Shown: one piece after another, positions 5,163-27,432 of the stretch | Numbering within the stretch: position 1 is the stretch's first letter | Layout: every line of letters starts with the position of its first letter | IMG/VR virus record: IMGVR_UViG_3300027996_000099 | Span: 1 to 34,537 of that record | Reading direction: 5' to 3' (one strand) | Source of the DNA: a virus | Length of the DNA stretch: 34,537 nucleotides | Notes under the pieces: generated by a model | Database searches by the model: none | The model's input: the letters and a program-made list of their open reading frames with translations, nothing else | What the model was told of the DNA's origin: nothing | Program-made: the position numbers and the translations under genes

Positions 5163-5417
5163 ATGAATAAAATAATAAAAGAAAACGGGAAATGGTCGAT
5201 AAAAGATCTACCATTAACAGAGAAAGAAAATGAAAGATATACTTACTATAAAAAAGTAGCAAAGAAGCCTACTAACTGGGACTTTATGGATTTCATTGCT
5301 CAGATGAAAACACTTTATAATAAAAGTATAGGCAAATCAAAAGACCATGCCATAGAGAAACAAGATGAATTCACCGATTTTATATCAAAAAATTACAAGA
5401 AATTTAAATTGAGGTAA
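5163..5417 (+). CDS. Tagged small protein 1 (84 aa), candidate internal head protein
   Basis: The protein begins MNKIIKENGKWSI, the shared tag found on six late proteins in this window. The body is short, lysine-rich and soluble, and I do not recognise it. Candidate (I/L)-x-E cleavage points after the tag are I-K-D at residues 13-15 and L-T-E at 18-20. AAAGGAGAATGAT precedes the ATG. It is in the late operon after the hub gene and two bases before the second tagged gene. I infer packaging into the head; no function of the body can be given. Confidence 0.75.
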   Translation: MNKIIKENGKWSIKDLPLTEKENERYTYYKKVAKKPTNWDFMDFIAQMKTLYNKSIGKSKDHAIEKQDEFTDFISKNYKKFKLR

Positions 5418-5419
5418 TC

Positions 5420-5785
5420 ATGATTAAAATAATAAAAGAAAATGGAATATATTCTATAATGGAGAGCAGTGAGTCAAAGAAAATAGAAAAATTTGCTAAA
5501 AATCTTGGAGCAGATCTTATATTAATTGATTCTAATAACATAGAACTAAGCAAAATAGTTGTTCCAAAAGAAGCAAGAGGAACAGGTATAGGGTCTAAAA
5601 TTATGAAAGAAATAATAAAATATGCTGATTCAGTTAATAAAATAGTAACATTGACTCCGTCTAAAGATTTTGGTGGAAGTGTTCCGAAGCTTATAAAATT
5701 TTATAAGTCATTTGGGTTTGTCGAAAATAAAGGCAAAAACAAAGATTATGAAATATCAGATACAATGTATAGACTTCCTAAATAA
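5420..5785 (+). CDS. Tagged GNAT-family N-acetyltransferase (121 aa)
   Basis: The N-terminus MIKIIKENGIYSIMESS is the shared tag with an I-M-E|S site (residues 13-16) like a T4 gp21 cleavage site. The body is a compact GNAT fold: IELSKIVVPKEARGTGIGSKIM carries the acetyl-CoA loop R-G-T-G-I-G at 53-58, and PKLIKFYKSFGFVENKGK is the typical motif-B end. The family transfers acetyl groups from acetyl-CoA to amines; the substrate here is unknown. The gene is the last of the hub operon. If the tag directs packaging, this enzyme would be delivered with the DNA. Confidence 0.8.
   Translation: MIKIIKENGIYSIMESSESKKIEKFAKNLGADLILIDSNNIELSKIVVPKEARGTGIGSKIMKEIIKYADSVNKIVTLTPSKDFGGSVPKLIKFYKSFGFVENKGKNKDYEISDTMYRLPK
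5426..5453 (+). repeat. 28-nt identical tag-coding repeat, copy 1
   Basis: These 28 bases, coding for the core of the tag, are identical to 22224-22251 in the metallopeptidase gene, although the rest of the two genes is unrelated. This suggests the tag was copied or exchanged at DNA level. Confidence 0.8.
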
Positions 5786-5790
5786 ATATT

Positions 5791-5798
5791 AATAAATA
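5791..5798 (+). promoter_or_regulatory. Late promoter before gp4 homologue
   Basis: AATAAATA is followed by a TACTATATTAACTACT leader similar to the other late leaders, though the inverted repeat is degenerate here. The gp4 ATG is 28 bases downstream and has no Shine-Dalgarno. Confidence 0.5.
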
Positions 5799-5826
5799 AT
5801 ACTATATTAACTACTTTATAGATTAC

Positions 5827-6354
5827 ATGTCAAGATCAAAACCAAAATATCAGCAAGGATACATCAAACTATTCCACGAAGACCATATAAAAAAATATGT
5901 TGGCGATGCCTCCAAAATAATTTATAGGTCTGGATGGGAAAAAAGATTCTTTAAATATCTAATTAACAAAAAAGAAGTTGTTGCTCTTAACATGGAAGAA
6001 GTAGTAATACAGTATGTTAGTCCAAAAGATAATAAGTATCATAGATATTTTATGGATTTTTGGTTCAAGACAGATAAGGGAAAACAATTCATAGTAGAGG
6101 TTAAACCTTTTGCTCAGACGAGAAGACCAGAATTGAAGCCAACTAAAAACGGCGTACTAACAGCTAAAAGAAAACAATCATACGCAACACAAATGAATAC
6201 TTACTTGGTTAATCTATCAAAATGGAAGTATGCTAACATATATGCTAAGAAAAACAATCTTACTTTTTTGATATTAACTGATGATACAAACAATTGTAGT
6301 AGAAATTACATGAATTTTAAATTATGGACTTTAGACGAGTTAGGGATTAAATAA
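5827..6354 (+). CDS. 4: Head completion protein gp4
   Basis: The protein begins MSRSKPKYQQG, very like T4 gp4 (also called gp50/65), which acts late in head maturation before tail joining. It contains IIYRSGWEKRFFKYL, YHRYFMDFWF and FIVEVKPFAQT, the pattern of a PD-(D/E)xK/TnsA-like nuclease fold with D and E-x-K in the expected order. It is 175 residues against about 150 in T4. The stop codon overlaps the next start by one base. The start lacks a Shine-Dalgarno and follows a late promoter leader. Confidence 0.88.
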   Translation: MSRSKPKYQQGYIKLFHEDHIKKYVGDASKIIYRSGWEKRFFKYLINKKEVVALNMEEVVIQYVSPKDNKYHRYFMDFWFKTDKGKQFIVEVKPFAQTRRPELKPTKNGVLTAKRKQSYATQMNTYLVNLSKWKYANIYAKKNNLTFLILTDDTNNCSRNYMNFKLWTLDELGIK

Positions 6355-7031
6355 TGACATTAACAGAAGGACAATTACGCAAAGCGGCAAAGTGGTTCTT
6401 TGGTAGAGCTAAAGATCTTTTCTCTAAAAAAAGAGAGACTGAGAAAGAAAAGAAAAAATCAGGAAATATAACCGATCTTAAAGATATATCTTCCAAGATG
6501 TATAATTTCAACTTGTATATGACGCTTTATCCAGATCCTCTATACAAAGACACTCTTCCTGTATACGATCAGCTACCATTATTCTTCCCTATTAGTATGA
6601 CAGGCGCTGCTCATGGATCAGGACCAAAAATACAAGGACTGAACATTCACTATTTAAGCCCAGCCAATCGAAAAGTGTTTATGCAAGAAATACTATTCGT
6701 AATAAAGAAAAACGCTGTTAGGGCTGGATATGACCCTGATACACTAGATGATATACCTCCAACAGTTATCAATGGATGGGTGGGAAAATATATTAATGCT
6801 GTATATTCACAACAACAGAAATCTGCTGGTAGTAAGATAAAGGTAGCTTATAGATCATATCTATTAAATAGAATTAAAGGGAAGATGATAAAGATAAAAT
6901 TTTCTGAGTGGGATAATGCAGTAAATGTTGTGCTACCAAGATTTAAAAAGATGTCTCCATCAGCAACATATCAGTATGTAAATGAACAGTACGCCAAGTA
7001 TAAAAACAATCCTTGGGGTCCATTGAGATAA
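6354..7031 (+). CDS. Conserved virion-region protein of unknown function (225 aa)
   Basis: The central block LPVYDQLPLFFPIS followed by GLNIHYLSPANRKVF is a pattern I associate with a conserved family in T4-like phages, but I cannot name its role with certainty. The N-terminus is lysine-rich (residues 10-40) and the C-terminus ends NPWGPLR. There is no membrane segment. It sits between gp4 and the portal, starts within the gp4 stop codon (TAATG), and is therefore probably a head-, neck- or baseplate-associated structural protein. Confidence 0.6.
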   Translation: MTLTEGQLRKAAKWFFGRAKDLFSKKRETEKEKKKSGNITDLKDISSKMYNFNLYMTLYPDPLYKDTLPVYDQLPLFFPISMTGAAHGSGPKIQGLNIHYLSPANRKVFMQEILFVIKKNAVRAGYDPDTLDDIPPTVINGWVGKYINAVYSQQQKSAGSKIKVAYRSYLLNRIKGKMIKIKFSEWDNAVNVVLPRFKKMSPSATYQYVNEQYAKYKNNPWGPLR

Positions 7032-7069: not shown

Positions 7070-8542
7070 ATGCTTTTACATGAAAATAAAATAACAAAGG
7101 CGATTGACAAAGGGAATTTTGACCAGGTAATAATCGATAAAGATAATAATGTTACTGGCGGATTCTTCTCTGGTATATATACAGGAAAAGACAATCCCGA
7201 GTGTATACTTGAAAATGAAAAAAATCTTGTAAAGACATATAGAAAATATGCCGCTATATCAAAAGTTGATGAAGCTATTCAAGATATCACAAATGAAGCT
7301 ATAGTAGTTGATGAAGAAGATTCATGTGCTATTCATACAGAAAGAATAGATTTTATGGGATCTCCTAGTGTAGCAAAAGGACTAAAAGAAAAAATCCTTC
7401 CAGAAATCTTTTCTAAAATTTACTCAAAATTAAAATTTGATCTACACGGTGACCAGTATTTCGAAAGATGGTATGTAGATGGAAGATTGTATGTATACGT
7501 GGATTCATCGAAAGAGGATGGAATTAAAGATATTAGAATACTTGATCCACTCCGATTGACTCTAGTTAGAGAAAATAAAAAATTACGTTATGACTATCAA
7601 ACAGGTGAGAAAGATGAAAACGGATGTAATAAGGAGCCTATGGAGATTCCTTTCAAAAATGTTATCTATATAACATCCGGCCTACATGACGCTGAAACAG
7701 GAGCCGTAATATCATATATTAATAAAGCAATAAAACCTATCAATCAACTTCAGATGATGGAAAATTCATTAGTTATTCATAGATTCATTAGAGCACCTGA
7801 GAGATGGCTATTCAAATTGGATACTTCTGGTATGTCAGATAGTAAAGCAACTGAATATATGAGAAAAGCTAGAGAACAGTTTAGAAGTAGATTTTCAGTT
7901 GATCCTATTACAGGAGAAACCAAAAGCCAATCACTTTTAATGTCAATGCAAGAGAATTTCTTTATCGCTAAGAGAAACACCCAAGGCGGCGGACATGAAA
8001 TAGATACAATTGGTGGTAGTTCACAGGGATTTGATAATATAGATCCTATAATATACTTTCAAAAAGAAATGTATAAAGCACTTAATGTTCCTGTTTCTAG
8101 ACTTGAACCAGAAAACACAACTTTCATAGGATCTAGAACAGAGGAAATAAACAGAGACGAATTAAACTTTTTCAAGTTCATTAAAAAGCTTAGAAAAAGA
8201 GGCATGCACGTACTATTCATGAAATTAATTGAACTCGAAGGAATATTAACGGGTAGAATCAAAAAAGAAGATTATGATGCAGTTGAAGATGATATCAGAT
8301 TTGTTTGGAGAAATGAATCCATCTATGAGCAAGCAAGAGAATCTTCAACAATACAATCTATAATAGAAAATTCCGGAATGCAAGCAGAAGAACTAGCACA
8401 TAAATACTTTTCAGTTGAATGGTTTAGAAAGAAAGTACTTAAACAGACCGATGAACAAATAGCTAAATATGATAAGCAACGACAACAAGAAATAAAAAGT
8501 GGAATAATTCCTGCTGATACTGACGAAGATGATGAGGAATAA
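7070..8542 (+). CDS. 20: Portal vertex protein gp20
   Basis: The portal forms the twelve-subunit DNA channel at the head vertex, nucleates head assembly and docks the terminase. The 490-residue product shows the T4 family pattern: LVKTYRKYAAISKVDEAIQDITNEAIV, YFERWYVDGRLYVYV, ILDPLRLTLVRE, LQMMENSLVIHRFIRAPERW, then IDTIGGSSQGFDNIDPIIYFQKEMYKALNVPVSRL and RDELNFFKFIKKLRKR. The C-terminus is acidic (DTDEDDEE), as in T4. The stop is followed two bases later by a tagged small gene, then gp21, matching T4 head-gene order. Confidence 0.95.
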   Translation: MLLHENKITKAIDKGNFDQVIIDKDNNVTGGFFSGIYTGKDNPECILENEKNLVKTYRKYAAISKVDEAIQDITNEAIVVDEEDSCAIHTERIDFMGSPSVAKGLKEKILPEIFSKIYSKLKFDLHGDQYFERWYVDGRLYVYVDSSKEDGIKDIRILDPLRLTLVRENKKLRYDYQTGEKDENGCNKEPMEIPFKNVIYITSGLHDAETGAVISYINKAIKPINQLQMMENSLVIHRFIRAPERWLFKLDTSGMSDSKATEYMRKAREQFRSRFSVDPITGETKSQSLLMSMQENFFIAKRNTQGGGHEIDTIGGSSQGFDNIDPIIYFQKEMYKALNVPVSRLEPENTTFIGSRTEEINRDELNFFKFIKKLRKRGMHVLFMKLIELEGILTGRIKKEDYDAVEDDIRFVWRNESIYEQARESSTIQSIIENSGMQAEELAHKYFSVEWFRKKVLKQTDEQIAKYDKQRQQEIKSGIIPADTDEDDEE

Positions 8543-8543: not shown

Positions 8544-8849
8544 ATGAGACTAATAAAAGAAGATGGTAAATATATATTAAGTGAGATGTCTATATTTAAA
8601 TATATAGTTGTAGGCGGAATAGTATGGTCTTTCTTGAAGTGGAAAAACTCTTCAGAAAGACTTATGAAAAAGAATGGTCTCAAGTACGGAGACAAAGTAA
8701 AAAAGTACGCTACTAGTTCAATTGGACAAGAAATTGAGATATCAGGAACAATTATACAGAGAAACGGAATTCCTAAAGTAAAGCTTGATAAATCAATTGG
8801 TGGTAGAACTATTATTAATTGGGACACGAATTTCATAAAGAATAAATAA
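8544..8849 (+). CDS. Tagged small protein with membrane-like helix (101 aa)
   Basis: It begins MRLIKEDGKYILSE, the shared tag with a possible L-S-E site at 12-14. A hydrophobic stretch follows (about residues 17-31, IFKYIVVGGIVWSFL), so it may be a membrane protein. The C-terminal half has a beta-rich look (EIEISGTIIQRNGIPKVKLD). An ATG at 8529 is also in frame but overlaps the portal; GAGGA sits before the ATG at 8544, which is the tag start. It lies between portal and protease, so it is made during head assembly. Function of the body is unknown. Confidence 0.72.
   Translation: MRLIKEDGKYILSEMSIFKYIVVGGIVWSFLKWKNSSERLMKKNGLKYGDKVKKYATSSIGQEIEISGTIIQRNGIPKVKLDKSIGGRTIINWDTNFIKNK
8841..8848 (+). 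promoter_or_regulatory. Late promoter before prohead protease
   Basis: AATAAATA overlaps the end of the tagged gene, 33 bases before the gp21 ATG. Transcription from here would cover gp21 and the gp22 frame. Confidence 0.5.
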
Positions 8850-8880: not shown

Positions 8881-9558
8881 ATGATTGAATTAAAAGAATC
8901 GATAGATAATTACGAGATAATAAAAGAAGGTGAAGGCACAGAAGAAACACTTCAATATAAGTTGAAAGGAGTATTCATGCAATCCGAAACTGTTAATAGA
9001 AATGGTAGAATGTATAAGCGACATGAGATGTTGAAAGAGATTGAGAGATATAATAGAGACATTATTTCCAATAGAGCTGGTTTCGGGGAACTTGATCATC
9101 CAGAAGGTTCATCTATGAATATGTCAAAAGCTTGTATATTTTTTAATAAGCCACTCACAATGGAAGGAGATGATGTTGTTGGCGAAGCACTTATTTTCGA
9201 CAATATATGGGGAAATCTTTTAATCAATTCTTTTATCAAACACGGAATACCTTTTGGAGTGTCTAGTAGAGGTCTTGGTGAACTATCTAGAATGAGAGAA
9301 TCAAAGAAAACTTTTTCAGTAGTCAATAATTTCAGAATCATAACACCTGCTGACGTAGTATCACATCCAAGTGCACCCGGAGCAATTCCAAAAGCAGTTC
9401 TTGAGCAAATAATGGAAAATGATAAAGATATTACAAAATTATTTGATGCTGAACTAATATTTAATATTCAAAAAGAAATTAATAAAACACAGTCCGCTAA
9501 CATTGATGAGGAAGTCATTAAGCAGTGGAATAACATATTAAACAGTATAAGAGGGTAA
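8881..9558 (+). CDS. 21: Prohead core protease gp21
   Basis: This serine protease of the herpesvirus-assemblin type matures the T4 prohead by cutting scaffold, internal proteins and capsid protein after (L/I)-x-E. The T4-like core is LKGVFMQSETVNRNGRMY, then H73 in GELDHP, the catalytic serine in GVSSRGLGEL (128/129), and D158 before SHPSAPGA. The 225-residue length is close to T4 (212). The N-terminus contains L-K-E|S (4-7) and I-K-E|G (14-17), plausible self-cleavage sites. Its presence makes protease-cut tags on the small late proteins credible. Confidence 0.93.
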   Translation: MIELKESIDNYEIIKEGEGTEETLQYKLKGVFMQSETVNRNGRMYKRHEMLKEIERYNRDIISNRAGFGELDHPEGSSMNMSKACIFFNKPLTMEGDDVVGEALIFDNIWGNLLINSFIKHGIPFGVSSRGLGELSRMRESKKTFSVVNNFRIITPADVVSHPSAPGAIPKAVLEQIMENDKDITKLFDAELIFNIQKEINKTQSANIDEEVIKQWNNILNSIRG

Positions 9559-9562: not shown

Positions 9563-10951
9563 ATGAAAATTGCGGATATTTTAAAGGATCTTCCTCTGAA
9601 TGAGGAAAAACTGAAAAACTTTATAGGTATTCTTAAAGAATGTTCAAATGAATATAATGAGAGTAACATACAAGAATGGTTAGAAGAGAATGTAAAAGAA
9701 TTAATAGAAGATGATGAAACATATTCTTCTGTTGTAGAAACTTTTTGTGAAAAATGTAAAGAGAATGCATTTGGACTAAAAAAAGAAGAAGAAACTAATG
9801 ATGAAACTGATGAAGTAAAAGAAAAAGAAGAAGAAGTTGTTGAAGAAACTAATGATGAAACTGATGAAGTAAAAGAAAAAGAAGAAGAAGTGGATGAAGG
9901 CGAAATTGGAAACAAGATAAGAAAGGTTGCTAATGAATCGGCTATAATACTTCGTAGACTCGCCGAGTTTCTAAAAAAGAAATCCGATCCTAAAGCAAAA
10001 AAGATAAGCAAAGAAATTTCAGACTTTATGAAAGTTATTAGTGAAATACAAGATTATTCAAATACAATAAAAGAAGAAAATATAAATAGTAATAAAGAAA
10101 ACAAAAATAGTGGAGAAAAACAAATGAGTAAACAATTTCATATTGGATTTGCTGAAGCAGTAAAAGATTTTGAAGCAAAAACAATTAAAGAATCTTTCGA
10201 AGATAAACACGAAGACTATCTTAAGGGATATGTGGACGGTCTTAATGAATGTGAAGAAGAAGTAAGAGAAGCTGAAGAAAATCTTTCTATTGCTGATGTA
10301 ATGAAAAAATTAAATGAACTATCTGAAGTAGTTGTTGCTTTATCTGAAGCAGTTACCAAGAAAGACGAAGAAAAAGTCGAAGAAGAAACTGAAGAAAAAG
10401 TCGAAGAAGCTAAAAAGAAAGATGACGACGAAGACGAAGAGGACGAAGAAGAAGATGAAAAAGACGCTAAGAAAAAAGTTAAAAAAGAATCTAGCGAAGA
10501 AGTTACTGAAGAAGAAATCGAGGGCGCTATTAAAAAATATAGAGAAGAAGAGATTAGCGAGGGAGAATTTGTTAAGTGGTTCAACGAAGTTTCAGAAAAA
10601 TTGGCTGAAAGTGACGAATACGAAGAAATGATAAGTAATATAGTTGAAAAAGTAAATGAAGGCGTCGAGAGTGAAGATGATAAATTTGTATTTGTAAATG
10701 AAGACGATGAGACAGAAGAAGTAAAAGAAGACATTAAAGAACAAGTTGAAAAGATAATCAGTGAATCTGTAGACGGATTAGTTGAGACAGATAAATTAAG
10801 AGTAGAAGAGTTAGTAGAAGGAATCGAATTCGAAACTATTGATAACTTCAAAGAACAACTTGATAAAATAATCAGTGAATTGGTAGAAGAGACACCAAAA
10901 TACAATTCACCTGAAGAAGAATATATAATGAACTTATTTAACGGTAAATAG
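9563..10951 (+). CDS. 22: Prohead scaffold, gp22-like, fused behind a second acidic protein
   Basis: Position between gp21 and gp23 and a very acidic, coiled-coil composition identify the main scaffold. The full frame is 462 residues, far longer than T4 gp22 (269). Met188 (base 10124) has GGAG eight bases upstream, and a perfect TATAAATA lies at 10081-10088; starting there gives 275 residues, nearly the T4 length. The N-terminal 187 residues look like a separate core protein joined through a low-complexity linker (ENINSNKENKNSGEKQ). The C-terminal RVEELVEGIEF...LDKIISELVEE end is scaffold-like. Residues 250-264 (LNELSEVVVALSEAV) recur in the protein at 18279. Confidence 0.8.
   Translation: MKIADILKDLPLNEEKLKNFIGILKECSNEYNESNIQEWLEENVKELIEDDETYSSVVETFCEKCKENAFGLKKEEETNDETDEVKEKEEEVVEETNDETDEVKEKEEEVDEGEIGNKIRKVANESAIILRRLAEFLKKKSDPKAKKISKEISDFMKVISEIQDYSNTIKEENINSNKENKNSGEKQMSKQFHIGFAEAVKDFEAKTIKESFEDKHEDYLKGYVDGLNECEEEVREAEENLSIADVMKKLNELSEVVVALSEAVTKKDEEKVEEETEEKVEEAKKKDDDEDEEDEEEDEKDAKKKVKKESSEEVTEEEIEGAIKKYREEEISEGEFVKWFNEVSEKLAESDEYEEMISNIVEKVNEGVESEDDKFVFVNEDDETEEVKEDIKEQVEKIISESVDGLVETDKLRVEELVEGIEFETIDNFKEQLDKIISELVEETPKYNSPEEEYIMNLFNGK
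9788..9895 (+). repeat. Tandem 54-nt repeat in the scaffold N-terminal part
   Basis: Two adjacent 54-base units differ only at their last few bases and encode EETNDETDEVKEKEEEV twice. The unit is in frame, so copy number could vary without breaking the gene. Confidence 0.9.
10081..10088 (+). promoter_or_regulatory. Late promoter inside the scaffold frame
   Basis: A perfect TATAAATA lies within the coding frame, 35 bases before a GGAG-preceded ATG at 10124. Together they look like an ordinary intergenic start region that is now read through. Confidence 0.5.
10310..10354 (+). repeat. Shared 15-residue coiled-coil module, scaffold copy
   Basis: LNELSEVVVALSEAV here and LNELSEVVVTLSEAV at 18738-18782 differ in one residue and are nearly identical at DNA level. 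Confidence 0.85.
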
Positions 10952-11001: not shown

Positions 11002-12396
11002 ATGAACGAATACGAAAAAAATTTACTTGAGAAAGTAAATGAGAATGAAATTGTTAAAAAATATCAAACAGTTTTAGACGAAGCTAATGTGCCTGCTTCA
11101 AAAAGAGTTACTATAGCTTTCATGCTTGAAAATCAAATGAAGTATGGAAAATCTTTTTCAAAAGAAAAATCAGTAGTTAGTGAAGCAACTTCAGCTGCTG
11201 ACGTGGCAACAATGGACAAAAACATCATGAAAATGATCACTAGGGGAATGCCTGCTGTAATCGGAACTGAGATTTTCGGTAACCAACCACTCCAAGCTGA
11301 TACTGGTGTATTTTTCTATATGCAAAATTTCTATACCAATGACGGAGCTAATTCTGTAAAACCTGCTGACTCAAAAGTTATCATCGTTGCTAGTTCAACT
11401 GGTTTCACAGTTGGTGGCGGTATTTCTTCTACTGGCGACGCTGGTGTTGGTACAGTAAGAATAGTTGAAGACAATAAACTTCTTGTAGAGATCGTTTCTG
11501 GATCTTTCGCTAATGGCGATTCACTTGACAATGCAGCTTCTTTCACTGCTGAAGCAACTACAGCAGTAGCAGTAGAAGAATCAGAAGTAGCAAAGAAAAT
11601 TTTCAGAGATTACATGAAATTTTCTTCAATTGCTAATGCAGAAGCAGCAAGTACTGGTATGAGAGAAATCGAACTTGGTATCGGAAAAGAAACAGTTGAA
11701 GCTGAATATCACAAGCTTAAGATGAGATACACATGGGAAGTAATCAATAGACTTCGTGACTATCACGGAATCAATGGCGACGCAGCTACAGACGAAGCTG
11801 GTGCAATGGCTTATGCTCTTACACTTAATGCTCGTGCAATGAATGATGTTAACACATGGGCAACAGCTGGTGGAGTTACTAGTTTTGATTATGATGCACA
11901 AGACGGTCGTTGGGAACTTGAAAGATATAAAAATCTTCTTGCTAGTATTAACAGACGTTCAGCTGATATTCTTTCAGCTTCAAAAATGGGTCTTGGTAAC
12001 TATCTTATCATCTCTCCAAACGTATGGGCTAGCCTTGATGCACATGGATATATTGATAAAGCTGGTCTTCCAGGTGGAATGGCTGATCCTTCAAGAAATC
12101 CTTTCGTAGGAATCCTTCTTGGACGTTATAGAGTTTATGTTGACATTTGGGAAACAGGCGACATAGTAAACATGGGATACAAAGATTTTGCTGGAGCAGC
12201 TGATAGTGAACTCCGTGCAGGCGCTTTCTTCTGTCCTTACCTTCCAGTAAGTTCAATCAAAACAGTTGGCGAAGATGATGGACAACCTAGAAAATTCTTT
12301 ACTAGTTCATTCGCTACAAAATTGCACCCTTTCGCAACTAAGAATGGCGGAAATGATTTCTTTAGAAAAATTAGCATCTCTAATCTTCCAGCATAA
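11002..12396 (+). CDS. 23: Major capsid protein gp23
   Basis: The HK97-fold shell protein of T4-like phages. The N-terminus has the delta-domain pattern (RVTIAFMLENQMKYGK), then V-V-S-E|A at residues 58-62, matching the T4 cleavage position (E65|A66), and the mature start ATMDKNIMKMITRGMPAVIGTEIFGNQPLQ. Later landmarks are KLKMRYTWEVINRLRDYHGI, NYLIISPNVWASLD, and SSFATKLHPFATKNGGN. It is 464 residues, somewhat shorter than T4 (521). Codons are richer in GCT and CTT than in neighbours, as expected for a highly expressed gene. A strong ribosome site, its own late promoter and a downstream terminator frame the gene. Confidence 0.96.
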   Translation: MNEYEKNLLEKVNENEIVKKYQTVLDEANVPASKRVTIAFMLENQMKYGKSFSKEKSVVSEATSAADVATMDKNIMKMITRGMPAVIGTEIFGNQPLQADTGVFFYMQNFYTNDGANSVKPADSKVIIVASSTGFTVGGGISSTGDAGVGTVRIVEDNKLLVEIVSGSFANGDSLDNAASFTAEATTAVAVEESEVAKKIFRDYMKFSSIANAEAASTGMREIELGIGKETVEAEYHKLKMRYTWEVINRLRDYHGINGDAATDEAGAMAYALTLNARAMNDVNTWATAGGVTSFDYDAQDGRWELERYKNLLASINRRSADILSASKMGLGNYLIISPNVWASLDAHGYIDKAGLPGGMADPSRNPFVGILLGRYRVYVDIWETGDIVNMGYKDFAGAADSELRAGAFFCPYLPVSSIKTVGEDDGQPRKFFTSSFATKLHPFATKNGGNDFFRKISISNLPA

Positions 12397-12514: not shown

Positions 12515-14485
12515 ATGAGTTTGAAAGAAAATATAATAGAAATTCTAGAAGTAACTAAAGGAAAATTCAAAAAATTCAATTTCAAATCTATAATGGATGA
12601 TATAATAGAAGCAACATCATTTCTAGATTCATATGATCCGAAACCACAAGAAAGAATATATCATATACTTAATGATATAAGTACTTCAATGATTTGTCCT
12701 GTATGTAACGATAAATTAAGATCATTTAGATCAATTAATAAAGGTTATGGAAAATATTGCTCAGTTCAATGTACAGGCAATTCAGAAGAATCTAAAAACA
12801 TTAGAAACAAATCACATAAAGAATATTACTCAGATGAAACAAACTATGAAAAAACACTATTAAATAGACAGTATAGTTTTTTAATCACAATGATAGAAAA
12901 ACATAATTACACCTATAATAGTATATTAGAAAAAACGCCTAATGAATTACATAACTACTTAATCGAAAATACATCAATCAAAATAGATTCATTACAAGAA
13001 TTATATTATGTTTATTGTGAAAGTATAATAGAACATCCAAAATGTTATTGTGGCAATGATTTAGATTTTATTAATATACACATGGGATATAAAAAATACT
13101 GTTCTACAGAGTGTCAAAACAAGTCACAAGAAAAATATGATAAGATGGCTGAAACAAATGAAGAAAGGCATGGAGTGGATCATTACTCAAAAACAATAGA
13201 GTTTAAAGATAAAACACGTAATACATGGAATAATAAGACTGATGAGGAAAAGAAAGAAATATATGAAAGAGCTGCTGATACATATAATAACAAGACTGAA
13301 GAGGAAAAGAAAGAGATAGTTGATAAACGCATACAAACTAATCTAAAAGAACACGGAGTAACTAATACATTGCTACTAGAAAAAAATAGAAAAAAAGCTG
13401 CTTATAGTATTAGGGAGACAAATTGGGAAAAACATGTTGATATGTTAATAGATAAAAAAATTACTCCATTATTTAATAGAGATGATTATCTAAACTTTTC
13501 AGAAGAGGATACAAAAAGATATAAATGTGATGTATGCGATAATATAATAGAAACTAATTCTATACAAGCAAAAGAAATATTTTGCATGAATCATGGAGGA
13601 AAATCTATAGCAGAACACGAAATAAAAGAATTTCTTAACAATAACGGAATTCATAATATTGAAATGAACAAAAGATTTTCTGTCAATGGAAAAGTAAGAG
13701 AAATTGATATATTTCTACCTGAATACAATATAGGAATAGAACATCACGGAATTTATTATCATAGTGAGAGCAAACTTAATACGAGAAAAGTAGGAGGAAA
13801 AATTTATCACTATGACAAGTACAAGTTTTTTAATGAAATTGGTATAAGGATTATACAAGTGTTTAGTAGCGAGTGGATTTTAAAAAGAGATATAGTAGAA
13901 TCAATAATAAAAAATTCATTGAAACTTAATAGCAATAAAATATACACTAGAAAATGTATATTAAAAGATATATCACATAAAGAGTTTGATAATTTTTTAG
14001 AAATTAATCATATGCAAGGCAATGTCAACTCCAAGTATAGATATGGATTATTTTATAATGATGAGTTAGTATCTGTATGCGGATTTAAAAAGAATAGATA
14101 TAGTAAGGATGATAATTTCGAATTGACTAGATTTTGTAATAAGATGAATACAAGTGTAGTTGGATCGTTTAGTAAATTTATTAAACATTTCACGAGAACA
14201 GTTTCCAGTAATATTATAACGTTCTGTGACTTAAGATACTTTGATGGACATGGATATGAAAAGAATGGATTCAAATTTAGTCGTATATCAAAACCAAATT
14301 ACTTCTATTTTAAAGATTCTACTTTAGTTTTAGAAAGTAGAATAAAATACCAAAAACACAAGTTGAAAGATACACTTCCTATATTCGATGAGAGCAAGAC
14401 AGAATACGAAAATATGATAGATAATAAGTATAGAAGAATATTTGATGCTGGAAATATTAAATATGTTTTCACAAAAAACTCTTGA
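12515..14485 (+). CDS. Homing-endonuclease-like protein, EDxHD/Vsr-type nuclease with zinc fingers
   Basis: A 656-residue protein starting at ATG 12515 (GGGAGG seven bases upstream). Two similar zinc knuckles occur at about residues 61-86 and 177-200 (C-x2-C or C-x-C, then GYxKYCSxxC), and a third at 338-357. A nuclease core follows: E367 in SIAEHEI, D398 in REIDIFLPEYN, H410/H411 in GIEHHGIYYHS, and HYDK at 432-435, the E-D-x-H-D order of EDxHD homing endonucleases, ending IRIIQVFSSEW. The middle holds repeated WNNKTDEEKKE-type segments, perhaps DNA-binding. It lies alone after gp23 with its own promoter, as expected for a freestanding mobile gene. Confidence 0.75.
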   Translation: MSLKENIIEILEVTKGKFKKFNFKSIMDDIIEATSFLDSYDPKPQERIYHILNDISTSMICPVCNDKLRSFRSINKGYGKYCSVQCTGNSEESKNIRNKSHKEYYSDETNYEKTLLNRQYSFLITMIEKHNYTYNSILEKTPNELHNYLIENTSIKIDSLQELYYVYCESIIEHPKCYCGNDLDFINIHMGYKKYCSTECQNKSQEKYDKMAETNEERHGVDHYSKTIEFKDKTRNTWNNKTDEEKKEIYERAADTYNNKTEEEKKEIVDKRIQTNLKEHGVTNTLLLEKNRKKAAYSIRETNWEKHVDMLIDKKITPLFNRDDYLNFSEEDTKRYKCDVCDNIIETNSIQAKEIFCMNHGGKSIAEHEIKEFLNNNGIHNIEMNKRFSVNGKVREIDIFLPEYNIGIEHHGIYYHSESKLNTRKVGGKIYHYDKYKFFNEIGIRIIQVFSSEWILKRDIVESIIKNSLKLNSNKIYTRKCILKDISHKEFDNFLEINHMQGNVNSKYRYGLFYNDELVSVCGFKKNRYSKDDNFELTRFCNKMNTSVVGSFSKFIKHFTRTVSSNIITFCDLRYFDGHGYEKNGFKFSRISKPNYFYFKDSTLVLESRIKYQKHKLKDTLPIFDESKTEYENMIDNKYRRIFDAGNIKYVFTKNS

Positions 14486-14576: not shown

Positions 14577-14633
14577 ATTCTGACTGTTCTAATACTTCGT
14601 CAGACAAGAGAAAACATAAAACTAATAGTAACG
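14577..14633 (+). ncRNA. Possible structured leader or small RNA, copy A
   Basis: This non-coding 57-base stretch aligns without gaps to 33774-33830 at about 38 of 57 positions, sharing ATTCTGA at the left and AAAACATAAAA-N2-AATAGTAA at the right. TCTGAC/GTCAGA can pair, and flanking GAGTATT/AATACTT can form a longer stem. It lies in the leader of the uvsX operon. It is not a tRNA. Confidence 0.35.
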
Positions 14634-14669
14634 CATAGATCATTGATTAACTTATAGAGAGGAAACAAA

Positions 14670-14774
14670 ATGAGAGATTACACAAGAGAAATCACAGACA
14701 TTAATTATCGCTTATCTGCAATCGAGGACCTCCTAAAAGAATTATTAAAAGAAATCAAAAAGAAAGAATCATGA
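14670..14774 (+). CDS. Small coiled-coil protein (34 aa)
   Basis: A short gene with GAGAGGAAACAAA before the ATG. The product MRDYTREITDINYRLSAIEDLL... is an amphipathic helix with heptad leucines and a basic end. Its stop overlaps the next start (ATGA), giving a coupled series of three small genes that leads to uvsX. No family is recognised. Confidence 0.6.
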   Translation: MRDYTREITDINYRLSAIEDLLKELLKEIKKKES

Positions 14775-14929
14775 TCAAAGAAGATTATTATTCTATACTT
14801 AGTAAATTAAGTAGTGAAGAAAGACAAAAATTAGACTATGATATGCTCATGTACGGAGAAGTCATATTAAAAGAAGTAGATGGAAAATATATTGTTGTCG
14901 ATCAATTAACAGTGGAAGTAACTAAGTGA
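14771..14929 (+). CDS. Small protein of unknown function (52 aa)
   Basis: Begins MIKEDYYSILSK and later reads VILKEVDGKYIVVD. Both stretches loosely recall the late-gene tag (IKE, then D/N-G-K-Y-I), but this gene is in the replication cluster and the match is weak, so I do not count it in the family. It overlaps both neighbours by four bases. Unknown function. Confidence 0.6.
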   Translation: MIKEDYYSILSKLSSEERQKLDYDMLMYGEVILKEVDGKYIVVDQLTVEVTK

Positions 14930-15198
14930 AATTTAGAAAATACCTTAAAAATAAGTATGACACCAAAGAAAAAATGGATGATTTTTTAAAAGGCTATGAA
15001 GAGTTTAAACTTGGTATAATTCTGAAAGATAAAAGGGAAAAAGAAGTGATGGAAGAAGATTCAAAAATTGTTGAGTTGTTTATATCAGGAGCAATAATAG
15101 CACTTATTATTGTATTCGGAGTAAATTTTATAAGCACTGCAAAGATTATTGAAATGCCTATTAGTAAACCAATCAGTAAAACAATTAAAGGAGGATAA
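14926..15198 (+). CDS. Small membrane protein (90 aa)
   Basis: Starts at a GTG overlapping the previous stop (GTGA), with GGAAG upstream. The first 45 residues are charged and basic; a single hydrophobic segment follows (about 48-68, VELFISGAIIALIIVFGVNFI), then a short tail with a repeated PISKP/ISKTI motif. A one-pass inner-membrane protein is likely. It ends one base before the uvsX start and carries the uvsX ribosome site in its last codons. Not recognised. Confidence 0.65.
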   Translation: MKFRKYLKNKYDTKEKMDDFLKGYEEFKLGIILKDKREKEVMEEDSKIVELFISGAIIALIIVFGVNFISTAKIIEMPISKPISKTIKGG

Positions 15199-20021: not shown

Positions 20022-20732
20022 ATGAAAATTAAAAGTATACTATTACTTATTTTAGCAACTGGATTATTAGTCCGTTGTTGTACTGTGAGGTATGTTGGGG
20101 ATCAAGATCAGATTGATGAAGTTGTTCAGAACGGCTCCAAGTCTGTAGGTTACATTGAAGTTACTAGGCTATTTAACTATTGTACCGCATTTAATAAATG
20201 TGAGTTGGTAGAGAAAAAGTATACTGGTACTGGGTTTGTTGTTGACGATGACGAAGGATATGTAATAACAAATAATCACGTTATTGATCAAGCTGTGCAA
20301 ACATTTATTACTATTGATGGCAATAGAATGTCACTGAAGTTATTAAAAACATATCCAAAGCAAGATGTAGCAATTCTAAAAATAATTCCTATTGGTACAC
20401 TTGACATAGAAGAAGTTAAATTAGCAGAAGAATCTAGAACAGGTCAAAAGATTCTAGTATGTGGTAATCCTTTTGGACTTAAGTTCTCATGGTCACACGG
20501 AATTATATCAGCAAAAAGAACGTATGAGAAAGACAATCTGTTTATAGGAGATTTCATTCAAGTCGATGCAGCAGTAAATCCAGGAAATTCTGGAGGTCCT
20601 ATTTTTAATTATGATGGAGAAGTAGTTGGCATAGTATCATATGGACTGACTCCAACAGGAAGTAATGTCGGAACTAACTTCGGAGTTGACTCTGCAGTAC
20701 TTAAAGTCCTTTTCAAAGAATATCTAGATTAA
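20022..20732 (+). CDS. Exported HtrA/trypsin-like serine protease 1 (236 aa)
   Basis: Start ATG 20022 follows GGAGGAAGAAC. The N-terminus MKIKSILLLILATGLLVRCC is a signal peptide, possibly a lipoprotein (cysteines at 19-20, atypical lipobox). The catalytic triad is complete: H86 in TNNHV, D115 in QDVAIL, S190 in PGNSGGP. There is no PDZ domain, so it is a bare protease domain. It would act in the periplasm or on the membrane. It has its own promoter and is followed by a paralogue. Possible roles are superinfection exclusion, envelope remodelling or lysis timing; none is shown by sequence. Confidence 0.88.
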   Translation: MKIKSILLLILATGLLVRCCTVRYVGDQDQIDEVVQNGSKSVGYIEVTRLFNYCTAFNKCELVEKKYTGTGFVVDDDEGYVITNNHVIDQAVQTFITIDGNRMSLKLLKTYPKQDVAILKIIPIGTLDIEEVKLAEESRTGQKILVCGNPFGLKFSWSHGIISAKRTYEKDNLFIGDFIQVDAAVNPGNSGGPIFNYDGEVVGIVSYGLTPTGSNVGTNFGVDSAVLKVLFKEYLD

Positions 20733-20836: not shown

Positions 20837-21511
20837 ATGAAAAAGATTCTTACTTTAATCGTTTTATTATTTTCTTTAGTATCATGTCAAAAATCTGAAA
20901 TGGATTCTATAAGAGAAGTTGTCAAAAAGAAAAGTTCTGTGGTAGTTATTTGGAATAACTCTATTATAGAAGGAGAAACAGTAGTTAATTATGGAACTGG
21001 ATTTTGTGTAGGTAAAGGATTGTTTCTAACTGCTCAACATGTAGTTGCTAATAGCAGCTTTTCATTTGTTGAAACCACGGATCTTGTATTACATAAGTCA
21101 GTAGTGGTATTTGAAGATATTGAAAATGATGTCGCTCTTTTAAAAGTAACTGAGATTATCGATTCTAAGCCATTAGAATTCGCATTGAATAGTGAAGTAG
21201 GAGAAAAGGTTATTATCATGGGACATCCGGGTCTACTTAGGCATACGACTAGTTTCGGAAGAATAACAAGAAAATACATCTTAAACGAAAAACAATTGAT
21301 TCAAACAGATGCTTCAAATGATAGAGGAGGATCAGGCAGTCCTATATTTAACTATGATGGAAAAATTGTTGGTCTATCACACTCAATGAAAACACAAACA
21401 TGCAACTTTGGATTGTCATTAGAATATCTTAAAGAAGTATTAGCCAATTATAATAATCAAAAAAATCAAACAAAACCCTTGACAATTAAATTTGATGCAG
21501 TATACTTATAA
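20837..21511 (+). CDS. Exported HtrA/trypsin-like serine protease 2, lipoprotein (224 aa)
   Basis: Start ATG 20837 with GGAG upstream. The signal ends in a classical lipobox, L14-V15-S16-C17, so the protein should be lipid-anchored. The triad is H68 in AQHVV, D98 in ENDVALL and S166 in GGSGSP; the last replaces the usual GNSGGP. IFNYDGKIVG matches IFNYDGEVVG of the upstream protease, supporting an old tandem duplication. No PDZ domain. The end of the gene carries the promoter of the next transcript. Confidence 0.88.
   Translation: MKKILTLIVLLFSLVSCQKSEMDSIREVVKKKSSVVVIWNNSIIEGETVVNYGTGFCVGKGLFLTAQHVVANSSFSFVETTDLVLHKSVVVFEDIENDVALLKVTEIIDSKPLEFALNSEVGEKVIIMGHPGLLRHTTSFGRITRKYILNEKQLIQTDASNDRGGSGSPIFNYDGKIVGLSHSMKTQTCNFGLSLEYLKEVLANYNNQKNQTKPLTIKFDAVYL
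21479..21506 (+). promoter_or_regulatory. Sigma70-like promoter inside the end of protease 2
   Basis: TTGACA (21479-21484), 16-nt spacer, TATACT (21501-21506), then TATAATAGATTGAT. It lies within the last codons of the protease gene. Confidence 0.7.
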
Positions 21512-22217: not shown

Positions 22218-22811
22218 ATGAGAAAAATAATAAAAGAAAATGGAATATATTTATTGAAAGAAAAAATATCTTTCAATAAATTAACAAAAAAATGGATGCA
22301 GATGATTATTGAATCATATATTAATTTTATATTTAAGAAAAATAATGTTTCATTTGATTTGAAAGTAACAACAAAGAAACGTCTAAAAGGAAATATGATT
22401 GGATATATTGATATGGTAAAAGCAATTAACGAAAATAAGTATGAACTTGTAATTGCCGACTCATCTTTGGACAGTATATATGAATCAATAGCACATGAAT
22501 TGACTCACGCAATTCAAATATATAAAGGATTTTTATCTTTCACTGACGATATGAAAAATATTATATGGAAAAAAGAATTATTTCCAGTTAAAGACTATGA
22601 AAAACTTCAGAGTGTTAAAAACTTCAAAAAGTACAAAGAAATTCCATGGGAAAAAGAAGCATATAAAAATCAAGACAAATTACCGGATGCATACAAAAAA
22701 ACAGATGAATTGAAAAAATTAGCCGATAAAGACGCTACTATAAATTTCATGATTAGTAATAATGATGATGTTGTCAGAACAGTTACAAATAAAACAAGTA
22801 TGATAGGATAA
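22218..22811 (+). CDS. Tagged zinc metallopeptidase-like protein (197 aa)
   Basis: The N-terminus MRKIIKENGIYLLKE is the shared tag, with L-K-E at residues 13-15. The body has SIYESIAHELTHAIQ, a textbook HExxH zinc site (H93, E94, H97) preceded by the usual hydrophobic/acidic pattern. A third ligand is not obvious. The rest is lysine-rich and helical. It has its own late promoter and directly precedes gp6, so it is made with virion parts. Its core tag codons are identical over 28 bases to those of the acetyltransferase gene. I infer a packaged protease; the target is unknown. Confidence 0.8.
   Translation: MRKIIKENGIYLLKEKISFNKLTKKWMQMIIESYINFIFKKNNVSFDLKVTTKKRLKGNMIGYIDMVKAINENKYELVIADSSLDSIYESIAHELTHAIQIYKGFLSFTDDMKNIIWKKELFPVKDYEKLQSVKNFKKYKEIPWEKEAYKNQDKLPDAYKKTDELKKLADKDATINFMISNNDDVVRTVTNKTSMIG
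22224..22251 (+). repeat. 28-nt identical tag-coding repeat, copy 2
   Basis: Exact match to 5426-5453. Confidence 0.8.
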
Positions 22812-24943: not shown

Positions 24944-25219
24944 ATGAAAAAACTAGTAAAAGAAGACAATGGAAAATGGGCTATTAAGCAAGAAAATATT
25001 GAAGAAGCTGAACAAGAAGAATTAGTAGAGCAGGAAGAATTTGATGTATCTAAAGATAAACTATTAAAATTTAAAGATACGCTTATCAAGCTAATGAAGC
25101 AGCATAAAGCCGAAGTTCAATTTTTATCTTCTGGGGAAGGATTTCAGATTGGATCAGCATATATAAAATTTGAGCACATAATTAAGAAAAATCCAGTCAT
25201 TAAAAAATTAAATGTATAA
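24944..25219 (+). CDS. Tagged small acidic protein (91 aa)
   Basis: Begins MKKLVKEDNGKWAIKQEN, the shared tag with one extra residue. I-E-E|A at 19-22 matches the gp21 cleavage consensus well. The next stretch is glutamate-rich, and the rest (KLLKFKDTLIKLMKQHKAEVQFLSSGEGFQIGSAYIKFEHI) looks like a small folded domain. AAAGGGAAATAAA precedes the ATG, 16 bases after gp6. Body not recognised. Confidence 0.75.
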   Translation: MKKLVKEDNGKWAIKQENIEEAEQEELVEQEEFDVSKDKLLKFKDTLIKLMKQHKAEVQFLSSGEGFQIGSAYIKFEHIIKKNPVIKKLNV

Positions 25220-25565: not shown

Positions 25566-25578
25566 ATAAGAGGTTATT

Positions 25579-25740
25579 ATGAAAAGAAGAATAATAAATT
25601 TGATGAGAAGTTTAATTAAAGAAAATATTAGCAAAGAAGATGTTGTGGACGGAGTCAATATATTATATATCAACGAAGATATAGATTTTAACTATCTATA
25701 TAATATAGCACTAAGAGAAGAGAGTTTTGTAGGAGACTAA
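25579..25740 (+). CDS. Small protein of unknown function (53 aa)
   Basis: AGAGGTTATT precedes the ATG. The product MKRRIINLMRSLIKENISKEDVVDG... starts basic and ends acidic. It contains LIKEN, but without the following G-K-W it is not counted as a tag. The last codons carry the ribosome site (AGGAG) of the next gene. Unknown. Confidence 0.55.
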   Translation: MKRRIINLMRSLIKENISKEDVVDGVNILYINEDIDFNYLYNIALREESFVGD

Positions 25741-25741
25741 T

Positions 25742-25846
25742 ATGATATTCATTAAATGTGATAAATGTGGGAAACATCATGTGGACTGTACAGTTAAATA
25801 TGTAAAAGACCAAGATATGTTTATATGTAAAGGTTGTAGAGATTAA
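25742..25846 (+). CDS. Small zinc-ribbon protein (34 aa)
   Basis: A very short gene with AGGAG upstream. CDKCG and CKGC form one C4 zinc ribbon that makes up nearly the whole protein. It starts one base after the previous stop. Such mini-ribbons are common phage accessory proteins; the role is unknown. Confidence 0.6.
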   Translation: MIFIKCDKCGKHHVDCTVKYVKDQDMFICKGCRD

Positions 25847-25862
25847 AGGGGGAAGGTTAATT

Positions 25863-26153
25863 ATGGGAATGTTTGATTATGTAAATTATAGTTGTAAGTG
25901 TCCCAATTGTAATCATACAATGGAAGATTTTCAAACGAAAGATATGGAATGTGATTTGATAGTAGTTGAGATAGAGAATGTAGATAATTTTTATGATTTT
26001 TGCTCAGAATGTGATTGCCGAGTGGAATTTTGTAGAATAGACAAGGAGAGATTCGAGAGAACTATTTTAAACAAAGATTTAAATATACGTTCAATAAGAG
26101 TTGTTAGAATTGTTCCTAAAAGAGAGTATATTACCACTGAGATCAATATATAA
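25863..26153 (+). CDS. Zinc-binding phage protein, MGMFDY family (96 aa)
   Basis: GGGGGAAGG precedes the ATG. The opening MGMFDYVNYSCKCPNCNHTMEDFQTKD is a pattern that I recognise from small phage proteins with a zinc knuckle and a FQTKD motif. A second pair, CSECDC, lies at about 47-52. It is the last gene of the small cluster and ends in a late promoter. Function unknown. Confidence 0.65.
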   Translation: MGMFDYVNYSCKCPNCNHTMEDFQTKDMECDLIVVEIENVDNFYDFCSECDCRVEFCRIDKERFERTILNKDLNIRSIRVVRIVPKREYITTEINI

Positions 26154-26173
26154 ATAATAGTATATTAACTATT
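26149..26173 (+). promoter_or_regulatory. Late promoter with leader inverted repeat
   Basis: TATAAATA (26149-26156), AATAGT (26156-26161), 6-nt loop, ACTATT (26168-26173). The ATG at 26185 has no Shine-Dalgarno. Confidence 0.65.
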
Positions 26174-26184
26174 AACTAACTAAT

Positions 26185-27171
26185 ATGACAACCTACAATA
26201 AAAGTCTAAAACCAAATATAGAAACTCTTTTCTCAGAGTATAATAGAACAGCCTATCCAACGTTTGTCCAATTCGCTGAAGAAGTACTTGGATATATGGA
26301 AGAAGAAAATTCTCTAACATATTTTACAGATGAATCGGACTCAGTTAAGAAAACAAACTCACTATATCAAAACATTGTAAGTTTTTCTAAATTCTTTGAC
26401 TTTGATAGTATACCAACAATAAACACAGAATTTTTCAATGCTGCTTTCAGTGATTATGCTAGTTCAGTTGATTTTAGAGAAGTCAATTTGTATGTATCAG
26501 TAGAAAAATTAAAAAGAATAATGCAATATGCTACCATGATGTACCGATTAAAAGACTCATGGAGAGGATATAATATGTTCGTCAAACTTATAGATGAGTA
26601 TATTTCCATATCATCCACCAAAGAAATAGATTTCAGAGTTTATTTCCATGATGATTTTACCACCCAGCCACCAGACTTTTCATCTATACCAGAAGATCAA
26701 ATTATACTATGTGAAATACCAACTTATTCTTTAACCAATTTAGTATTTTCCGGATCAATTTATGTGGCATCAGATTTTCCTACTACTGCTGATGTAGTCA
26801 ATGGAATGTCGTATCTTGTAAAAACGTCGGTTACTGATAATGATGCTACAAAGACAAATACAGGACAATCATTCACTTTAGATCAACAGATAAAATGGAA
26901 TGGAGCAACTTGGGATGTCTTCACGGACCTAACAGTTAATAGGACAGCCATAACAGCAGCAGACAAAGGAAAATATCTTTTTGAATATCAAATAGCAAGT
27001 AATTCTGATTTGACTCGTACAGGTAGATTTTCAAGGTCTATGATAGATAATTTTCATCCAGCTGGTTTTGTTGTTGATAATATAGTACAGATAAACGATG
27101 TAGCAACAAATGTAAAAATAGAAAATAAAAATTTTCAAGTAACAGAATATATAATAGAATGTGAAACATAA
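26185..27171 (+). CDS. Baseplate or tail-associated structural protein (328 aa)
   Basis: The N-terminal part (FSEYNRTAYPTFVQFAEEVLGYMEE) and YATMMYRLKDSWRGYNMFVKLI recall baseplate proteins that connect wedges or fibres, where a 'yr-KGS-x-f' helix is typical. The second half is beta-rich, with VASDFPTTADVVNGMSYLV and LDQQIKWNGATWDVF, a small domain often seen in tail proteins. It lies between gp6 and the fibre gene. The exact T4 counterpart is not clear. Confidence 0.55.
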   Translation: MTTYNKSLKPNIETLFSEYNRTAYPTFVQFAEEVLGYMEEENSLTYFTDESDSVKKTNSLYQNIVSFSKFFDFDSIPTINTEFFNAAFSDYASSVDFREVNLYVSVEKLKRIMQYATMMYRLKDSWRGYNMFVKLIDEYISISSTKEIDFRVYFHDDFTTQPPDFSSIPEDQIILCEIPTYSLTNLVFSGSIYVASDFPTTADVVNGMSYLVKTSVTDNDATKTNTGQSFTLDQQIKWNGATWDVFTDLTVNRTAITAADKGKYLFEYQIASNSDLTRTGRFSRSMIDNFHPAGFVVDNIVQINDVATNVKIENKNFQVTEYIIECET

Positions 27172-27192
27172 ATTAAATAAAAGGAGACAAAA

Positions 27193-27432
27193 ATGAAAGT
27201 AACAAAAGAAAACGGTAAATGGAATTTAACTGAAGCAAAAGGACACAAAAAAGAGTATGCTAGTATGAAAAAGGATATTCAAAAAAAATTAAAGGAATTG
27301 AGTAAATTACTTGATATCCACGAGAAAGAGTTTTTAGATGATTCTGGAAATTTTGGTTTTGTTGGTGATTTGGGTAGAATTAGCAACGATTTGTCCGATT
27401 TATTACAATCCCTTAAATCAAATAAAAAATAA
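27193..27432 (+). CDS. Tagged small helical protein (79 aa)
   Basis: Begins MKVTKENGKWNLTEAKG. This is the shared tag with L-T-E|A at 12-15, the best match here to a T4 gp21 cleavage site. The body is helical with heptad leucines (IQKKLKELSKLLDIHEKEFL, DLGRISNDLSDLLQSL). AAAGGAGACAAAA precedes the ATG. It lies between a baseplate gene and the fibre gene in a late operon. Body not recognised. Confidence 0.75.
   Translation: MKVTKENGKWNLTEAKGHKKEYASMKKDIQKKLKELSKLLDIHEKEFLDDSGNFGFVGDLGRISNDLSDLLQSLKSNKK

Follow-up and report, generated by a model that had tools for sequence, protein, structure and literature searches.

Six late proteins encoded in the window, i.e., the whole 34,537-nucleotide DNA stretch analysed here, share an 11-residue core at their N-termini (genes at 5163, 5420, 8544, 22218, 24944, and 27193), and this tag probably represents a lineage-specific capsid-targeting sequence (CTS) cut by the gp21-type prohead protease. 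The window phage has a T4-type gene set and is a distant relative of T4 that infects bacteria; an S77 prohead protease, a scaffold protein, gp20, and gp23 are all encoded in its genome (Table 1). The proposed function is supported by this set of head genes (gp20, gp21, gp22, and gp23), by analogous tag sets in other phages, by the likeness of the tags within the genome, and by the kinship of one cargo enzyme, a GNAT acetyltransferase, with known or suspected injected proteins.

Table 1. Tagged genes, head genes, and predicted cut sites of the window phage (a slash marks the predicted cut)
Feature	Position	Strand	Remarks
Tag MNKIIKENGKWSIKDLPLTE	5163..5222	+	Predicted cut after residue 20, LTE/K; site further along than usual
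Cargo 1, 64-aa basic protein, pI 9.7	5223..5417	+	No known family match
Tag MIKIIKENGIYSIME	5420..5464	+	Predicted cut IME/S; 27 core bases the same as in 22218
Cargo 2, GNAT acetyltransferase	5465..5785	+	PF13508, E 1.8e-8
Tag MRLIKEDGKYILSE	8544..8585	+	Predicted cut LSE/M
Cargo 3, small basic protein between gp20 and gp21	8586..8849	+	Orthologous in L027 and G001
Tag MRKIIKENGIYLLKE	22218..22262	+	Predicted cut LKE/K
Cargo 4, HELTH (HExxH) protein	22263..22811	+	Motif read from sequence; phrog_16532, E 4e-10, no function annotated
Tag MKKLVKEDNGKWAIKQENIEE	24944..25006	+	Predicted cut IEE/A; one inserted residue, site displaced
Cargo 5, 70-aa protein	25007..25219	+	No known family match
Tag MKVTKENGKWNLTE	27193..27234	+	Predicted cut LTE/A
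Cargo 6, 65-aa basic protein	27235..27432	+	No known family match
gp20-type portal	7070..8542	+	PF07230, E 4e-100
gp21-type prohead protease (S77), presumed cutter	8881..9558	+	PF03420, E 1e-25; phrog_207, E 7e-45
gp22-type scaffold/core protein, presumed tag receptor	9563..10951	+	PF25623 (T4-phage-like scaffolding), E 3e-6; between gp21 and gp23
gp23-type major capsid protein	11002..12396	+	PF07068, E 2e-61
Predicted gp23 propeptide cut VSE/A, residues 59-61	11176..11184	+	Glu invariant in clade alignment

All six genes of the original prediction were found at the starts and with the N-terminal sequences that it gave, and its claim that the proteins show no evident similarity beyond the tag agrees with the dissimilar cargo bodies, among which only that of 5420 (GNAT) has a clear Pfam match. 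In a leave-one-out analysis, a profile was built from five tags and 9,992 positions were scanned for the sixth; the left-out tag ranked first for each of the six, with a narrow margin for 24944 (10.5 vs 9.8) because one residue is inserted in its tag. The tag profile found these six copies only, with no seventh in any of the six frames of the window. Comparison of N-termini gave 11 of 1,081 pairs with a score of at least 36, and internal control segments gave none. Five of the tagged starts are preceded by a clear 4-5-base Shine-Dalgarno motif, and 24944 by a weak one. As for 8544, the longest ORF begins at 8529, and the start that aligns with the other tags is at 8544.

The original prediction also noted an (I/L)-x-E site soon after most of the tags. 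In its loose form, this observation says little, since (L/I/V)xE occurs within residues 9-21 in 21 of the 47 window genes (45% background), and such counts were discarded as evidence. The claim is stronger for a fixed place: glutamate follows the core after one intervening residue in four of the six tags vs a 10% background for E (P ~0.0014), while the tags of 5163 and 24944 have the site 5-7 residues after the usual place. The predicted cuts of the capsid proteins in the clade are VSE/A, LGE/R, IAE/A, and LDE/A, with one invariant Glu common to all.

In other phages of the same T4-like clade, small proteins encoded at matching places bear different tags that end in (L/I/V)xE, the motif of the predicted gp23 cleavage site; all ten tags of these relatives end in the expected gp21 site. 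The tags of L028 are MLSRRRNLSE, MLSRRRNLRE, and MLKRRRMNLRE, with the predicted cut after the final residue, and one of its cargo proteins is a pentapeptide-repeat protein. L027 has MKYQKNAEGKFIKIDE, likewise ending at the cut, and three other tags; G001 has MKLVFKNNKFNLYE, also followed by the cut, and its tags are weakly similar to one another. Tag pairs had a mean score of 38 within the window and of 12-20 when matched with other genomes. The gene lying between gp20 and gp21 is shared as an orthologue by three phages of the clade (the window phage, L027, and G001), and its tag scores 32-40 to the tags of its own genome vs 14-20 to those of the orthologues. It is this evidence from relatives, drawn from sequence comparison, that decides in favour of a putative capsid-targeting role. 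The sister contig L026, which has the closest capsid protein (51%), contained no tag set within 20 kb.

Parallel tag sets were found in T4, in a 214-kb T4-like phage, and in Agrobacterium phage Atu_ph07. As a control of the method, T4 IPII and IPIII were recovered by the N-terminal pair comparison. In the 214-kb phage, 19 proteins, including two ADP-ribosyltransferases and two GNATs, begin with M(I/K)xF(K/R), and residue 10 is Glu in 17 of them. Among T4-like loci whose start is of the helical type, Glu occupies P1 in 37 of 57 cases vs 2-8 at other offsets. Atu_ph07 encodes about ten tagged proteins; its CDS 63, which starts with MRLFQLLE/T, adjoins genes starting with M(R/K)WxQL(T/N)E, again with the predicted cut after Glu. 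By gene place, CDS 63 and its tagged neighbours lie inside the CDS 31-76 cluster, for which proteomics identified 29 virion proteins (PMC6102473).

It is unlikely that the tag addresses the baseplate, the tail tube, or a phage assembly site rather than the head core. Several tagged genes do lie beside gp6, hub, and fibre genes; however, the tags end in the motif of the head protease, gp20 and gp21 flank one of the tagged genes, and the closest functional match is with the T4 internal-protein tags. Gene neighbourhood is a weak guide to location, because head-packaged Alt-family genes have been reported beside baseplate genes (PMC5512222).

A second explanation, raised in outline in the original prediction itself, is an aid to translation: A-rich codons after the start would keep the mRNA open, the peptide being a by-product. 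The A content is higher in tagged than in untagged starts (0.59 vs 0.45), but equally A-rich window starts at 3119 and 32120 have no tag. Codon identity among the window tags is somewhat above the codon-usage expectation (74 of 104 vs 58.7 expected), whereas that in L027 is at the codon-usage level (17 of 37 vs 19.0 expected), and third-position differences in the tags of the 214-kb phage (614) are about twice those at the first (326) and second (246) positions. These codon counts speak for the peptide in the 214-kb phage and L027, while the window codons alone are compatible with an aid to translation. Since the tags of relatives are different peptides with the same final cut motif, this explanation is poorly supported and very improbable.

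Genes 5420 and 22218 agree at 27 of 27 bases of their tag cores and have dissimilar flanks; therefore, tag DNA was copied, and the tag probably spread from gene to gene through recombination. The same identity might suggest that the N-termini are leftovers of gene duplication or a functionless mobile start cassette, which we judge slightly less probable still: the bodies lack similarity, the upstream regions are not shared, and independent counterparts, i.e., other peptides with the same ending in at least four other phages, would not be expected of a functionless copy. In a scan of 2.9 million viral contigs, the exact-tag DNA pattern matched only contigs of the window phage and some unrelated proteins with chance KENGKY starts, so the exact tag is lineage-restricted. 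Chance likeness of common beta-hairpin N-termini with KENGKW-like turns can practically be dismissed: viral contigs other than these do encode unrelated proteins with such starts (MRQRNYIKENGKY), but the first rank obtained six times and the excess of high-scoring N-terminal pairs speak against it.

If the tag is a capsid-targeting sequence, its 13-21 N-terminal residues would bind the prohead core late in infection, with the gp22-type scaffold as the presumed partner, and the six unrelated proteins would thereby become trapped inside the head. Cleavage after (I/L)xE by the gp21-type protease would then release the mature proteins; having been packaged, these would be injected together with the DNA when the next host cell is infected. 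The 8544 product may instead be a core component, by analogy with T4 gp67/68. We lean slightly towards a more general view, in which each T4-like lineage would have its own N-terminal targeting peptide. Recombination and co-evolution with the core receptor would keep this peptide uniform across all cargo of a genome, and only the protease motif would be common between lineages. With the same slight preference, the code of the window clade is regarded as beta-hairpin-like, unlike that of T4. A search of the available literature gave no paper describing such lineage-specific tags.

The CTS of the T4 internal proteins (IPI, IPII, and IPIII, with MKTYQEFIAE before the cut) and of Alt is cut by gp21 according to the L/I-x-E rule (PMC9026906). 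Like the window tags, it is short and N-terminal, occurs on small basic proteins that are otherwise dissimilar, has L/I-x-E at its end, and is accompanied by the same head-assembly gene set; some cargo of the relatives is of the same enzyme kind as Alt. In contrast to the amphipathic helix of T4, the window peptide resembles a beta-hairpin whose turn is ENGK, and among its cargo, for which packaging is predicted from genes, are a GNAT and an HExxH protein. The window tags show no sequence similarity to the T4 IP-type family, which has aromatic/hydrophobic residues at positions 4 and 7: the mean window-T4 tag-pair score was 12.9, the level of unrelated sets, vs 23.6 between the 214-kb phage and T4. 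Therefore, the window tag is either analogous to the T4 CTS or a strongly diverged version of it. No homology with the mature domains of IPI, IPII, and IPIII was detected, and no cargo matched T4 internal proteins in PHROG or Pfam.

Similarities extend to other systems. The injected protein DarB of phage P1 has an N-terminal head-address signal; in other phages, DarB-like proteins contain a domain related to the window GNAT. The P1 literature examined reports no L/I-x-E motif for this signal, P1 lacks a separate scaffold, and no common tag was found among the Dar proteins (PMC9024508). GNAT domains also occur in the head-packaged multidomain polyvalent proteins of phages, and packaging was predicted for solo GNATs encoded close to late genes (Iyer et al. 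2017, PMC5512222); unlike these giant fusions, the window GNAT is a single domain with a predicted removable tag. The head propeptides of SPN3US and phiKZ are likewise N-terminal, are thought to direct proteins into the prohead, and are removed by a gp21-like protease, but they are long (e.g., 111 residues in SPN3US gp47, PMC7411985), with no short tag repeated across proteins.

Proteins injected first by a phage are difficult to identify, since their fast-evolving bodies have no matches. A tag that varies between lineages and is recognisable within a genome would allow prediction of injected proteins from sequence alone: six here, 19 in the 214-kb phage, and about ten in Atu_ph07. The T4 mechanism would thus cover tags of unrelated sequence and new kinds of cargo, namely, acetyltransferases, a pentapeptide-repeat protein, and arrays of ADP-ribosyltransferase-like proteins, which points to a putative general route by which proteins enter the virus head and are delivered to the host. 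This raises the question of tag-receptor co-evolution and, if private codes are real, packaged effectors of uncultured phages could be read directly from sequence.

As for individual cargo proteins, the 5420 GNAT matched PF13508 with 35.1 bits (cut-off 27), and its nearest phage relatives (50-60% identity) lie within DarB-like/PLxRFG proteins; relatives of this GNAT are located in a 3,764-aa DarB-like protein and in Atu_ph07 CDS 63. The HELTH motif makes 22218 a possible zinc peptidase; no Pfam peptidase match was found, and the structure model (pLDDT 35) was too poor for a fold call. Homologues of 22218 occur in phages pT24, Melnitz-3, and 207E48.1, where the neighbouring genes have no clear tag set. 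The resemblance of 27193 to an L028 cargo protein and that between two tagged GNATs were not significant. Relatives of the gp6 gene, which together with hub and fibre genes adjoins several tagged genes, were not found among the genome contigs searched. The structure model of the 8544 product gave no significant fold match; it shows an unstructured tag and a body consisting of a helix and a small beta domain.

All six late genes named in the original prediction begin with a common N-terminal peptide (the tag) at the positions proposed, and the protein sequences that follow it are unrelated among the six. An 11-residue profile was built from five tags, and the left-out sixth was scored against the predicted proteins of the window, each tag being left out in turn. 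The omitted tag came out top among 9,992 positions in all six rounds, usually with 21–31 bits vs. 8–10 bits at the best other position; the tag of the gene at 24944, which contains one inserted residue, had a narrow lead (10.5 vs. 9.8). Searching every frame of the window with the full six-tag profile revealed no seventh copy. When all gene starts of the window were compared pairwise, 11 of 1,081 pairs scored at least 36, vs. none when internal segments of these proteins were compared. The tag cores of genes 5420 and 22218 are identical at 27 of 27 DNA positions and differ in their flanks, suggesting recent copying.

The tag is very likely a lineage-specific capsid-targeting sequence (CTS). 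In phage T4, internal proteins carry a CTS of 10–19 residues that binds the prohead core and is removed by the gp21 protease, which cleaves after L/I-x-E (PMC9026906; PMC3012670). The window tag is proposed to work alike: tagged proteins would be packaged, the tag cleaved and the cargo injected. However, it lies outside the T4 sequence family, and tag-pair scoring did not link it to the T4 CTS. The principle of a capsid-targeting tag is thus already known from T4; new are a tag sequence unrelated to that of T4, new cargo, and evidence for tag uniformity within genomes and difference between them.

The window contains a T4-type head module (gp20, gp21, gp22-like and gp23). Four capsid proteins from the clade, when aligned, share one invariant Glu directly before the mature domain; the cuts predicted there, placed by alignment position, are VSE/A, LGE/R, IAE/A and LDE/A (slash, predicted gp21-type cut). 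The predicted cut in the capsid protein of L028, a contig of the same clade, is VAE/G. The original prediction also pointed to an (I/L)xE site shortly beyond most of the tags. Mere presence of such a site is not evidence, since 21 of the window's 47 called genes have an (L/I/V)xE within residues 9–21. What held was a fixed place, two residues past the last hydrophobic residue of the tag core, where 4 of 6 window tags have Glu vs. a 10% background (P about 0.0014). With ten tags of three relatives added, the count is 14 of 16; the nominal P of about 1e-12 is too favourable, as this Glu had itself helped to draw attention to the tags of the relatives.

The exact window tag is confined to contigs of the same phage. 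Phages of the same clade, whose gp6 proteins are 38–42% identical, mark small proteins at corresponding places with different tags (Table). In the L027 set the (I/V)-x-E frame is constant and the penultimate residue is free, the three tags of G001 (a 76.9-kb contig, that of L029) show weak mutual similarity, and 20 kb of L026 show no tags.

Table. Features of the window and of related contigs (slash, predicted cut)
Source	Position	Feature	Details
Window	5420	Tagged protein	GNAT acetyltransferase
Window	22218	Tagged protein	HELTH motif
Window	5163, 8544, 24944, 27193	Tagged proteins	Small, without known family; three of four basic
Window	7070	Portal gp20	PF07230; starts MLLHE
Window		Prohead protease gp21	S77, PF03420
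Window		gp22-like scaffold	PF25623
Window		Major capsid protein gp23	PF07068
Window	12515-14485	656-aa Cys-rich protein	Between gp23 and uvsX-like gene; endonuclease-like by eye; no Pfam match; absent from corresponding place in L026, L027, L028
Window	20022-20732, 20837-21511	Tandem trypsin-like proteins	PF13365; lipoprotein-type signal peptides; among late genes
Window	30736-31092	Truncated copy of terminase N-terminus	Upstream of full terminase gene
Window	32120-33769	Full terminase gene	
L028		MLSRRRNLSE/G	On pentapeptide-repeat protein, PF00805, E 1.5e-64
L028		MLSRRRNLRE/M	
L028		MLKRRRMNLRE/G	
L028/L003	499-1949	Capsid gene	Two overlapping frames, split near base 715; sequencing error or real frameshift
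L027		MKYQKNAEGKFIKIDE/A	
L027		MKYYKDESGSFQKVDE/Q	
L027		MRYELNENKELVKIEE/A	
L027		MKYVLNENKEVVRIFE/R	
G001		MKLVFKNNKFNLYE/D	
G001		MKLYMENKKFVLIE/F	
G001		MLLIIHDGKIDLIE/K	
L177 (G001)	14595-14945	Tagged protein, candidate DNA-binding head protein	Tail very Lys/Arg-rich; weak match to head scaffolding PHROG, E 0.002
L029	6911	Signal-peptide protein	Similar to the trypsin-like pair
L196 (Agrobacterium phage Atu_ph07)	1845-10593	CDS 54–63, about ten genes	All annotated hypothetical; most have a YRGM-type ADP-ribosyltransferase-like start after the common tag

The window, L027 and G001 have orthologous genes between gp20 and gp21; the L027 and G001 products share 24–27% identity with that of the window and 34% with each other. 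The tag of the window copy scores 32–40 to the other window tags vs. 14–20 to the tags of its orthologues, and the L027 and G001 copies show the same tendency towards their own genomes, less sharply. Tag and body are uncoupled, as one common receptor per genome would impose, which is hard to explain by chance, paralogy or a folding role within each protein. Since the core proteins gp67 and gp68 occupy the equivalent position in T4, this cargo could, by analogy, be a core part instead of an injected protein.

As a control, the same method was applied to T4 and picked out IPII and IPIII (MKTYQEFIAE/), plus two starts that resemble them. Of the proteins encoded by a 214-kb T4-like contig, 19 begin with M(I/K)xF(K/R); Glu is at residue 10 in 17 of them, and (V/L)xE occurs slightly later in the other two. 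Their bodies include two GNATs and two ADP-ribosyltransferase domains (PF18760), the latter in keeping with T4, whose cargo protein Alt is such an enzyme. Third codon positions of these tags differ about twice as often as first or second positions, showing that the tag peptide is under selection. Of 57 T4-like loci whose start is of the helical type, 37 have Glu at P1 (other offsets, 2–8).

The alternative that the tag aids translation has some support: window tag codons are identical in 74 of 104 cases vs. 58.7 expected, partly because of the identical cores of 5420 and 22218, and the A content is 0.59 in tagged starts vs. 0.45 in other starts. However, it leaves unexplained L027 (codon identity 17 vs. 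19.0 expected from usage), the 214-kb phage and the common end motif. An address elsewhere in the particle, an unlikely but conceivable alternative, would explain neither the head-protease motif nor the gp20–gp21 gene.

As for the cargo, the nearest phage relatives of the window GNAT (50–60% identity) sit within large proteins, including the 3,764-aa DarB-like antirestriction protein of Serratia phage Parlo. DarB of phage P1 is packaged in the head and has a targeting signal at its N-terminus (PMC9024508), and packaging of solo GNATs near late genes was predicted earlier (PMC5512222). Another relative (51%) is CDS 63 of the jumbo phage Atu_ph07 (CDS numbers counted from the record start), which starts with MRLFQLLE/T; after it comes an array whose members begin with M(R/K)WxQL(T/N)E/. 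CDS 54–63 fall inside the CDS 31–76 cluster (46 CDS), in which mass spectrometry identified 29 virion proteins (PMC6102473); proteomics thus supports packaging of tagged proteins at the level of this cluster only.

In every portal of the clade the N-terminus is a short stretch of the form (L/I)(H/S)E with an invariant Glu (MSFVLHE, MAVLISE and MGINISE in L026, L027 and L029, respectively), and LHE also occurs near the N-terminus of the L027, L028 and L029 capsid proteins. These are possible extra protease sites; T4 gp20 is listed as uncut. The pair of trypsin-like proteins with lipoprotein-type signals is unusual in a T4-like phage.
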